Assembly (NCBI RefSeq): GCF_003030345.1
Contig: NZ_CP028158.1
Coordinates: 3,534,001-3,598,000 of the forward strand
Direction: 5' to 3'
DNA length: 64,000 nucleotides
Source of the DNA: Plantactinospora sp. BC1
Lineage (GTDB): Bacteria > Actinomycetota > Actinomycetes > Mycobacteriales > Micromonosporaceae
Shown: one piece after another, positions 15,671-18,647 of the stretch
Numbering within the stretch: position 1 is the first letter of the stretch
Layout: each line of letters opens with the position of its first letter
Translations under genes and position numbers: made by a program
The notes under the pieces: generated by a model
Database searches by the model: none
Told to the model about the DNA's origin: nothing
What the model saw: the letters and a program-made list of their open reading frames with translations, nothing else

Positions 15671-16291
15671 CTCGGCCTTCCTCGCTTGCGCCGGACGGCG
15701 ACACCGTGATCGTGCACACCGACCGGAGGTCCGATAGTCACGACGAGAACAGGATTGCCCGGACGGTCTGCAGCCCGCCCGCTGATCTCGTTGATTGGAG
15801 GGATCATGTGCAAGCGAACGGGATTCGTCAAGAAGCGAAATGAGTCCGTTCTTGTTCCGATTCGACGAAGGGAGATTTTCCGTTTCGGAAGGGAGAATCC
15901 AGAACCGGCATCGGAGCGGGCAGGCAGCACGGAAAAAGGCCGTACGCTGCGGGTTCGTGCGGCGGGAAAAGTTCCGCCGGGGACGGAAGAACTCCCCGCC
16001 GGTCCGGGTCGATGACAGGCAGCCGGATTTGCCGTGGATGGCCACGGTCAGCCGCGGGCGGTCCGGGGCGCCCGCTCCGGGCATCGGCGGAAAAACGGCT
16101 CCGCCTGTCCCGGTCGAAGCGCAGCACCGGAGCCGGCCGGCCTTGCCTTGCCGTACCGGCACCACCCCGGGGCGGGTACCGGCGACCGCCGCGCAATCTC
16201 CGTCGTTGCCGGCCGAGCGGGATCGAGCGGGGCGACGGGCGGAGCCGGATGCTCCGCTGAGCATCGTCGATATTGCCGGGGCGGGGCGGGG
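15671..16291. other. Gene-poor, compositionally distinct stretch
   Basis: About 620 bases with no supported gene. AT-rich patches around 15740-15960 contrast with the neighbours. A possible 69-codon ORF at 15806-16015 (+) has GGAGGG just upstream of its ATG and starts MCKRTGFVKKRNES, but its codon third positions are not GC-biased. It is therefore either foreign, decayed or not coding. Confidence 0.45.
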
Positions 16292-16353
16292 CGTGCTGGA
16301 ATGGCTCATATCGCCGCAGTGCGGGGGCAACCGCACTGGGAACGGCCAGCACG
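16292..16353 (+). promoter_or_regulatory. Structured repeat element, copy 1 (candidate cis-regulatory RNA)
   Basis: The outer helix CGTGCTGG (16292-16299) pairs with CCAGCACG (16346-16353). It encloses a conserved 17-base strand AATGGCTCATATCGCCG (16300-16316) and a hairpin CAGTGCGG-GGGCAA-CCGCACTG (16317-16338). The core 16294-16338 matches 17784-17828 at 40 of 45 positions, and all differences inside the hairpin preserve pairing. It lies about 160 bases before the exported-protein gene at 16511. No known riboswitch is recognised. Confidence 0.65.
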
Positions 16354-16510
16354 GGAGCACCGCAGTGTCGGCAGCGCGCGCCGCGACGCCAGATCCGCAC
16401 TGCATTCGCCGGGCCAGCTTCCGCCAACGACGGACACCCACCCAGCACGGGTCGGCGCGTCCGACGAGATCTGCCAACGCACCAGACCGGCGACGAGATG
16501 AGAAACGATC

Positions 16511-17098
16511 ATGAATACCCGGAACAGTTTCGCGGGGTGGTACCGCAACCGCTTCGTGTGGGTGGCGGTCATCCTGCTGGCGGTGTCGGCCGGCACGGTC
16601 GTACTGATCAACACGGCCGGCTCGGAGGCCAGGCCACCGGATCTGCAGGGGCAGATCATGACCCGGTTGCGGACCACACTGGAGTCGGCCGACCCGGCGC
16701 AGCACCAGCACGCGGGCCACAACGTGCAGCAGGCGACCGCCGAGAAGGACGGCAAGAAGCCGGCGATCATCTGCGGGGTCCGCGTCTACGGCTTCGAGCC
16801 GAGCGAGGTCACCGCGCTCGCCGACGTGCAGACCGTCTACGGCTTCCACCTCTGCGGGGTCGCCGAGCAGAACCGGCCCTGGGACTGGGCGGTCAAGCTG
16901 GCCGGCCCGGTGATCGTGGACATGTCCACCGAACCGCCCGCCATCCAGGTGGTCGAGGCGACCGCCGACGTCCGGTTCATCGACCGGCTCCGGGAACTGT
17001 TCCCGGACAAGTACGAGAAGCTGGCCGAGAAGGAGGCACTGGACGAGTCCGAGATGGCCGACCTGCGCCGCCGGTACGACGAGGCGGCCGGGCTCTGA
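16511..17098 (+). CDS. Exported or membrane-anchored protein of unknown function
   Basis: A 195-residue protein. The N terminus NSFAGWYRNRFVWVAVILLA and onward is a single hydrophobic helix after a basic stretch (signal anchor or uncleaved signal). The exterior domain has two cysteines (IICGVRVYGF and FHLCGVAEQNRPWDW) that could form a disulfide. It ends in a charged helix (FPDKYEKLAEKEALDESEMADLRRRYDEAAG). No family recognised. It lies downstream of the structured repeat element at 16292 and shares that element type with the LPMO gene. Start ATG 16511 gives the signal-like N terminus. Confidence 0.7.
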   Translation: MNTRNSFAGWYRNRFVWVAVILLAVSAGTVVLINTAGSEARPPDLQGQIMTRLRTTLESADPAQHQHAGHNVQQATAEKDGKKPAIICGVRVYGFEPSEVTALADVQTVYGFHLCGVAEQNRPWDWAVKLAGPVIVDMSTEPPAIQVVEATADVRFIDRLRELFPDKYEKLAEKEALDESEMADLRRRYDEAAGL

Positions 17099-17226
17099 CC
17101 GCCCGGGGCGGCCGGCGGCGAGGTCGTACCCGATCCCGTCCGGCCGCCGGGGCGTACCCCGCTCGGTAGACTTCCGGTTCGTCGGGTTTCGGGGCGGACC
17201 CGGCGTACCCGAGTGGAGGTCGACCC

Positions 17227-17667
17227 GTGACGACACCGCACCGACCCCCGCTGGCCGAGCGGCTCGACCTGGCCCCGCACCCGGAGGGCGGCTGGTTCCG
17301 CGAGACCTGGCGCTCGACGCACGCCTTCACCCCCGAGGGGTACGCCGGGCCGCGTGCCGCCGCGACCGCGATCTACTTCCTGCTGCAACCCGGGGAGCGG
17401 TCCCGCTGGCACGTCGTCCGCTCCGACGAGCTGTGGCTCTGGCACCGGGGCGGCCCGCTGCGGCTGCGGCTCGGTGGCGTGGCCGAGGTGCCGGCGGAGG
17501 TGCCGACCGAGGCCCGACTCGGCCCGGACGTGGCCGCCGGTGAGCAGCCACAGTTGCTGATCCCCGGCGGTGTCTGGCAGTCGGCCGAGCCGGCGGGCGA
17601 CCAGCCGGTCCTGGTGAGCTGCGTGGTGGCGCCCGGCTTCGACTTCGCCGACTTCCAGTTGGCCTGA
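17227..17667 (+). CDS. Cupin superfamily protein (DUF985 / Cupin_5)
   Basis: A 146-residue single-domain cupin. LAPHPEGGWFRETWRS is the N-terminal signature of the DUF985 group. YFLLQPGERSRWHVVRSDELWLWHRGGPL contains the metal-ligand-like His and Glu of the first cupin motif. The later GGVWQSAEPAGDQPVLVSCVVAPGFDF is the second motif. Proteins of this group are structurally cupins without agreed activity. It follows the exported protein by about 130 bases and may be independently transcribed. Confidence 0.9.
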   Translation: MTTPHRPPLAERLDLAPHPEGGWFRETWRSTHAFTPEGYAGPRAAATAIYFLLQPGERSRWHVVRSDELWLWHRGGPLRLRLGGVAEVPAEVPTEARLGPDVAAGEQPQLLIPGGVWQSAEPAGDQPVLVSCVVAPGFDFADFQLA

Positions 17668-17778
17668 GCCGACCTCCACTCCCCCTGCCCCGCGCTGCCG
17701 ACAGCGGTCGGGTCGGGTGGACATGCGGGACCATTCCGTCGGGCACGTATCGATAGACACCTATTGATTGAGCCGGCC

Positions 17779-17840
17779 ATCCATGCTGCAATGGTTCATA
17801 TCGCCGCAGTACGGGGGCAACCGTGCTGCGTGTGTGGGAT
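17779..17840 (+). promoter_or_regulatory. Structured repeat element, copy 2 (candidate cis-regulatory RNA)
   Basis: This copy has the conserved strand AATGGTTCATATCGCCG (17790-17806) and the hairpin CAGTACGG-GGGCAA-CCGTGCTG (17807-17828). Compared with copy 1, a G-C pair is replaced by A-U and a U-A by U-G, keeping the stem. An outer helix (17779-17786 with 17832-17840) is possible but needs G-U pairs and a bulge. It lies about 135 bases upstream of the LPMO start. Confidence 0.65.
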
Positions 17841-17975
17841 CCGGGCCTGATGTGCCAGTAGCCGGTGACCGGGCGACGGACGCCACCACCACGCCCGCAC
17901 GCCCCGCCGGAAAACACCCGACCGCGCCGCCCGCCGACACCCCTGGGCAGCGGGTCGAACAGAAGGGATCAACTC

Positions 17976-18647
17976 GTGAAACTCATGCGCAGACTGACGG
18001 TCGTCGGTGTCTCCGCCGTACTGACCGCCGGCCTCCTGACGGTGATCTCGCCGACCCCGGCCAACGCACACGGCGCGCTGATGATTCCGGCGAGCCGGAC
18101 GTACGCCTGCTACCGGGACGGCCTGACCCCGCAGGGCAACATCGTGAACAAGAACCCGGGCTGTGTCGCCGCGGCCAACATCAGCGGCGTCTCCCCGCTC
18201 TACAACTGGTTCAGCGTGCTCCGCTCGGACGGCGCCGGCCGGACCCGGGGCTTCATCCCGGACGGCCAGCTGTGCAGCGGCGGCAACTCCACCTTCCGGG
18301 GTTGGGACCTGGCTCGGAACGACTTCCCGAAGGCCCAGGTCAGCTCGGGCGCGAGCATCGAGTTCCGGTACAGCAACTGGGCCGCGCACCCCGGCCGGTT
18401 CGACCTGTACGTCACCCGCAACGGTTGGAGCCCCACCCGCGCGCTGGCCTGGAGCGACCTGGAGTCGACGCCGTTCTCCTCGGTCACCAACCCGCCGCAG
18501 CGGGGCAACGTGGGCAGCAACGACGGCCACTACTACTGGACCGGTCGACTGCCGTCCGGCAAGAGCGGCCACCACATCATCTACTCGGTGTGGACCCGCT
18601 CCGACAGCACCGAGACCTTCTACGGCTGCTCGGACGTGACGTTCTGA
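17976..18647 (+). CDS. Secreted lytic polysaccharide monooxygenase (AA10, chitin-binding type)
   Basis: A copper enzyme for oxidative cleavage of chitin or cellulose, 223 residues. A Sec-type signal (MKLMRRLTVVGVSAVLTAGL through SPTPANA) is cleaved before HGALMIPASR, leaving the N-terminal His of the copper histidine brace. A second His lies in NWAAHPGRFDLYVTR. The C-terminal pattern HHIIYSVWTRSDSTETFYGCSDV is typical of AA10. Four further cysteines are consistent with disulfides. No carbohydrate-binding module follows. GTG 17976 has GAAGGGA upstream. Expression may be controlled by the upstream structured element; a strong terminator follows. Confidence 0.95.
   Translation: MKLMRRLTVVGVSAVLTAGLLTVISPTPANAHGALMIPASRTYACYRDGLTPQGNIVNKNPGCVAAANISGVSPLYNWFSVLRSDGAGRTRGFIPDGQLCSGGNSTFRGWDLARNDFPKAQVSSGASIEFRYSNWAAHPGRFDLYVTRNGWSPTRALAWSDLESTPFSSVTNPPQRGNVGSNDGHYYWTGRLPSGKSGHHIIYSVWTRSDSTETFYGCSDVTF

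Follow-up and report, generated by a model that had tools for sequence, protein, structure and literature searches.

The window analysed here, a stretch of 64,000 nucleotides from the genome of Plantactinospora sp. BC1, carries on its forward strand two genes for exported proteins, each preceded by a copy of the same short element. The first gene (16511..17098) encodes a 195-aa protein, here called P195, that has a predicted N-terminal helix and, at E ≤ 1, is without a match in Pfam or NCBIfam, and the second (17976..18647) encodes an LPMO of the AA10 family (Pfam LPMO_10, E 1.8e-56); LPMOs are copper enzymes. A Cupin_5 protein is encoded between P195 and the LPMO. The Pfam and NCBIfam searches confirm the original prediction that copy 1 stands before an exported protein of unknown function and copy 2 before an LPMO. 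Among 24 aligned P195 sequences, Cys88 and Cys115 are invariant and a His-rich stretch is present, and the AlphaFold model of P195 (mean pLDDT 75.5) has no fold match in the PDB at E ≤ 0.001.

The two copies are identical at 40 of 45 positions in an ungapped comparison of 16294-16338 with 17784-17828, whereas the best ungapped 45-mer between shuffled leader regions has 30 matches (200 dinucleotide shuffles), which bears out the duplication first noticed in the sequence. Each copy contains a hairpin, P3. In copy 1 (16317..16338, from its fold and from covariation) it consists of 8 bp formed by the arms CAGTGCGG and CCGCACTG and the loop GGGCAA at 16325-16330, and in copy 2 (17807..17828) the arms are CAGTACGG and CCGTGCTG, with the same loop at 17815-17820. 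From copy 1 to copy 2, one G-C pair becomes A-U and one U-A pair becomes U-G, just as had been proposed, and both changes keep the pairing. Both hairpins are more stable in folding than their own shuffles, with z scores of -2.9 and -3.3.

A covariance model, R1, was built from 34 copies of the element (alignment A1), both window copies included; it matches copy 1 at 16260..16357 with 109.3 bits and copy 2 at 17751..17847 with 72.3 bits. R2 is a broader model whose alignment also contained the window copies, and R3 is a model of LPMO leaders outside the window, which were themselves found with R2; R3 recovers both window copies, copy 1 with E 3.7e-15 and copy 2, at 17753-17847, with E 8.5e-11. 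Between 15800 and 18100 of the window no Rfam 15 family reaches its gathering threshold (two matches at E ≤ 5, with E 2.6 and 3.5, are both far under the family cut-offs), in keeping with the initial remark that the element matches no known riboswitch class. Five tRNAs at a single locus (L113) are the sole Rfam 15 matches in 11 relatives.

Distribution of the element and the genes that follow it

Further copies occur in other Micromonosporaceae. A sequence pattern with up to three mismatches matches 42 of 200 genomes of this family (among the 52 pattern matches listed, three have a different core, and one of these, L036, was discarded), while R1 matches 145 of 354 family genomes at E ≤ 0.1 and R2 matches 160 of 354 at E ≤ 0.01, the weakest of which may be due to chance. 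At the level of the order, a search of 397 genomes gave matches in 38 at E ≤ 0.001; of these, 37 belong to the family, and the one outside (G633) was rejected as an element, as it sits within an unrelated open frame. In the class, searched with strict filters that, like those of the order and family searches, may miss weak matches, R2 has matches in 10 of 296 genomes, R3 in 5 of 178, with two of each set belonging to Micromonosporaceae. The eight other matches of R2 look like chance, several of them lying over open frames, and the three other matches of R3 lie over open frames; all were rejected. A degenerate exact pattern, run against one genome per species (84,980), finds 47 stretches, all from Micromonosporaceae by record title, in the genera Micromonospora, Plantactinospora, Phytohabitans and Asanoa and in another member of the family. 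The covariance-model search of actinobacterial genomes that was originally suggested therefore does yield more copies, with covariation and upstream of exported-protein genes, but in the order, the class and the 84,980 species representatives searched they appear to be confined to this one family. The 11-mer TCATATCGCCG alone was rejected as a marker, having matched 40 of 61 genomes, with most of the 32 loci read lacking the element.

The Plantactinospora sp. BC1 genome itself holds a third copy (G000:C1:5693189-5693286, minus strand), found by R2, which precedes a second LPMO that is 67% identical to the LPMO of the window. Genome G330 has three strong copies (L095, L096 and L097), of which two precede P195 genes that are nearly identical.

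The association with downstream genes was assessed in 60 sources, namely the window and 59 loci hand-picked from the R1 matches (mostly second or weaker copies), which contain 68 R1 matches at E ≤ 0.001. For 66 of these the first same-strand downstream gene is Cip1-like (31), P195 (26) or LPMO (9), the Cip1-like family being assigned by Pfam PF21340 and PDB 3zyp; of the remaining two, L129 lies just before an LPMO gene by coordinates and L100 is near a contig end. All 67 assessable matches have a same-strand gene from the P195, Cip1-like or AA10 LPMO family. In one genome (G009) the element precedes all three gene types, and another Cip1-like locus (L171) also carries it. All three families encode exported proteins, some of which are linked to cellulose breakdown. 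When 90 LPMO loci were gathered by protein similarity, R2 matched 35 of them at E ≤ 0.01, 22 among the 30 nearest to the query and 13 among a further 60 selected from the similarity list; the 55 LPMO loci with no R2 match at this threshold count against the explanation favoured below.

Structure of the leader

P3 covaries. In A3, an alignment of 51 matches that are mostly LPMO leaders, include some spurious low scorers and were fitted to the structure, 88.9% of P3 cells are paired, both sides have changed at six of the eight pairs (shuffled mean 2.9, equalled in 1 of 500 shuffles), and 15 further pair types are seen (shuffled mean 9.0, with 0 of 500 shuffles reaching 15). Because A3 was fitted to the structure, an arm-swap test was anchored on the loop alone; it used distinct stems only, left out the 15 of 159 elements that lack the anchor (12 Cip1-like, one P195, two LPMO) and, like the covariation statistics, ignores kinship among the sequences. 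In permutations within each class, the native arms fold better than every one of 300 for P195 (29 distinct stems) and likewise for LPMO (41 distinct stems), and for Cip1 (12 distinct stems) 22 of 300 permutations are as low as the native, which is a weak result. An earlier, ungapped version of the test that used a coarse anchor had given p values of 0.13 for P195, 0.18 for Cip1 and 0.009 for LPMO; it was weak for all but LPMO, in part owing to mis-anchored rows, and was redone with the pairing-independent anchor. Across the 68 R1 matches P3 is 92.8% paired; the four pairs that have changed on both sides are no excess (341 of 500 shuffles reach four), and the cells changed on both sides number 33, against 11.1 in shuffles (0 of 500). 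Mutual information over the leader alignment was discarded as a covariation signal, as it seemed to be dominated by subgroup ancestry.

At one P3 pair in the P195 and Cip1 leaders, A-C mismatches (12) outnumber G-U pairs (8). The stems of LPMO leaders diverge in sequence yet pair, as in GCGGUACG/CGUACCGC, GGUGCGG/CCGCACC and ACAGCGCG/CGCGCUGU, and the stem of L223 keeps its pairing with a bulge. Of 149 anchored elements, 125 have a loop that reads GGGGC and then AAC, UGA, UGC or UAA, a count for which the anchor itself demands a G-rich GGC and which leaves aside the 10 of 159 elements without it. A covarying helix thus lies upstream of related genes on their coding strand, the Cip1 class being weak when taken by itself, and the covariation and arm-swap results therefore speak for a structured leader RNA more than for a DNA palindrome. 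The original prediction had offered a cis-regulatory RNA or a protein-binding palindrome; these results support the former, and the latter is the less well supported of the two.

Upstream of P3 is a block that looks partly like a promoter, being arranged like a -35 followed by an extended -10 element. In copy 1, the candidate -35 is TTGCCG (16273..16278) and the candidate extended -10 is TGC TGGAAT (16294..16302), 18 nt after the -35 hexamer; in copy 2, the candidates are TTGATT (17764..17769), from the CTATTG block of LPMO leaders, and TGC TGCAAT (17784..17792), with a spacer of 17. Across the 34 copies of A1, TTG and TGnT..AnT are invariant (T35, G36, T38, A41 and T43 in the latter), the TTG being lost in a Cip1 subgroup. 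In the copies inspected by eye, the poorly conserved spacer gives 17 or 18 nt between the hexamers, and position 2 of the candidate -10 is G or C, not the usual A. Scanned under strict criteria for sigma-70 promoters, the window region yielded none. The stretch AATGGYTCATATCGCCG, initially described as conserved and single-stranded, is indeed conserved, but it looks partly like a -10 and its last bases probably lie within a short helix. In ten Cip1-like leaders (L113-L118 and L120-L123), a TATAAT-like box sits about 44 nt further upstream than the -10 normally does and the conserved TTG is lost, and so transcription may start earlier there.

A short helix, P2, is predicted at the base of P3, with GCCG (16313..16316) pairing with CGGC (16343..16346) in the fold of copy 1. 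Pair variation is seen at one position, which is G-C in 73, G-U in 20, A-U in 5 and unpaired in 5 of 103 leaders, and in the LPMO folds inspected P2 is CCG with CGG or another combination such as CGUA with UACG; the evidence for P2 is weaker than that for P3. The outer 8-bp helix that had been proposed to close copy 1 is present as complementary sequence (16292-16299 with 16346-16353), is 80.3% paired in A1 and pairs in 684 of 809 cells of 103 P195 and Cip1 leaders, but the other 125 cells are unpaired and copy 2 lacks the complementarity altogether. Both-side changes affect four of its pairs, in 8 cells altogether, of which the sister leaders L126-L128 supply three. Were this helix real, transcription would have to start upstream of the proposed promoter.

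Beyond these helices, a downstream block, CAGCACGGGAGCACCGCAGTG (16347..16367 in copy 1), is similar in P195 and many Cip1-like leaders and is missing from some short ones. Further downstream, 28 of 50 LPMO leaders have a hairpin of the GUCC/GGAC type, compared with 4.1 in single-base shuffles, for a pattern that was picked after inspecting these leaders, which are related to each other; copy 2 is absent from those listed with it. P195 leaders (0 of 26) and Cip1 leaders (3 of 31) show no enrichment of the TCC/GGA hairpin. A pseudoknot pairing GCC with the loop was rejected, ACC being present in several leaders in which the loop is unchanged.

Possible roles of the element

The element is probably a promoter-linked, structured 5′ leader RNA that is common to a small regulon of exported proteins. 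From the layout of the promoter-like block, transcription would start just after the conserved TTG-N17/18-TGnTGnnAT sequence, and the mRNA would therefore begin with a clamped stem-loop, in which the short helix P2 closes P3 and P3 bears the GGGC loop. The conserved downstream stretch would come next, followed in many LPMO messages, though not in that of copy 2, by a second hairpin. If RNA is the functional form, a common trans-acting factor, either a protein or a small RNA, may bind the loop together with the downstream stretch and so set the lifetime or the translation of the regulon messages jointly. Counting against this reading as a whole are the strict promoter scan that came up empty, the weak arm-swap result for Cip1, the A-C mismatches in P3 and the searches that found no expression platform. 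The same genome encodes a 6C small RNA (RF01066; L313, G000:C1:4383927-4383999; 68.8 bits, above the Rfam cut-off), which is a separate trans RNA, unlike the leader element, and has C-rich stretches complementary to the element's G-rich loop; pairing between the two may therefore be conjectured.

We are aware of no control of bacterial LPMO genes at the RNA level, and no description of the element was found among the matches listed from open-licence papers. In the cip-cel operon of Ruminiclostridium cellulolyticum, RNA stem-loops set the levels of cellulose-degrading proteins; these are reported to be intergenic processing sites in one operon, whereas the present elements precede separate genes in another phylum (PMC10311766).

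A rival account, though in our view an unlikely one, is that a 5′-terminal stem-loop merely shields abundant secretory mRNAs from 5′-dependent decay and senses nothing. Stem-loops of the ompA type at the 5′ terminus stabilise mRNA in E. coli. Work cited in PMC3997798 offers precedents in stabilising 5′ stem-loops of E. coli mRNAs and in the leader mRNA of Bacillus subtilis aprE; such structures likewise lie close to the 5′ terminus of the message or right at it, and one of them serves a secreted enzyme. Only a few bases would separate the helices of the present element from the inferred start site, and neither a terminator scan of the window region nor a test of Shine-Dalgarno (SD) pairing in 41 leaders revealed a riboswitch-like platform, all of which suits a passive stabiliser. 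However, the conserved GGGC loop and the conserved downstream stretch would be superfluous for pure stabilisation, and both features, along with the defined three-gene association, set the element apart from these precedents.

It is improbable that the leader itself binds a small molecule or ion, such as a cellulose breakdown product or copper, as a riboswitch would. Orphan riboswitch candidates are structured leaders found by comparative genomics, and the present element resembles them in being a structured leader with covariation upstream of one coherent gene set and with no Rfam family. It differs from them in having no ligand and no recognised expression platform and in being found in one bacterial family in these searches, and its common structure is simple, one clamped hairpin. 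There is no terminator-like site at 16150-18000 of the window, and TTTT is present in 0 of 41 leaders. In the same 41 leaders, which were hand-picked, SD accessibility is near that of leaders whose upstream parts were shuffled by single bases, with mean z values of 0.08 for P195, -0.59 for Cip1 and 0.86 for LPMO; SD pairing shows no clear excess, with Cip1 leaning slightly towards it.

Less probable again is a DNA operator, in which a dimeric transcription factor would bind the inverted repeat a short way downstream of the promoter. In its favour, P3 forms an inverted repeat adjoining the promoter-like block, DNA further upstream is also conserved in LPMO leaders (ATCGA-N7-CTATTGC), and some stems accommodate A-C mismatches. 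Yet conservation resides in the asymmetric loop, and the wide variation of LPMO stems that stay paired, as well as the bulged pairing of L223, argues against a protein reading the stem as DNA; no sequence-specific half-sites common to the sites were found, and LPMO stems have pairing, not sequence, in common. Finally, a leader-peptide attenuator, in which translation of a short peptide from the AATGG frame would control the gene, is very improbable, for although a frame M(A/V)HIAAxRGQP from the conserved ATG (16301 and 17791 onward) overlaps the hairpin in copy 2 as well as in the majority of P195-type copies, ATA, ATT or TTG replaces the ATG in 4 of the 34 listed copies, the end of the frame varies, the ATG falls inside the inferred -10, the frame occurs in 0 of 45 LPMO leaders, and no conserved short open reading frame emerges from the 34 copies and 45 LPMO leaders.

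The structured 5′ leader RNA read by a common factor invites a bolder and much more tentative proposal: conceivably, it belongs to a new class of RNA sensors or of RNA-protein regulatory systems that set the output of cellulose-acting exoproteins in Micromonosporaceae once transcription has begun, and P195 would then be a partner of LPMOs and Cip1 that has so far escaped recognition. The covariance models make the question of a regulon directly testable. The element would mark a small regulon across a large set of actinomycetes associated with soil and plants, and it ties the uncharacterised exported protein P195 to LPMOs and Cip1-like proteins.
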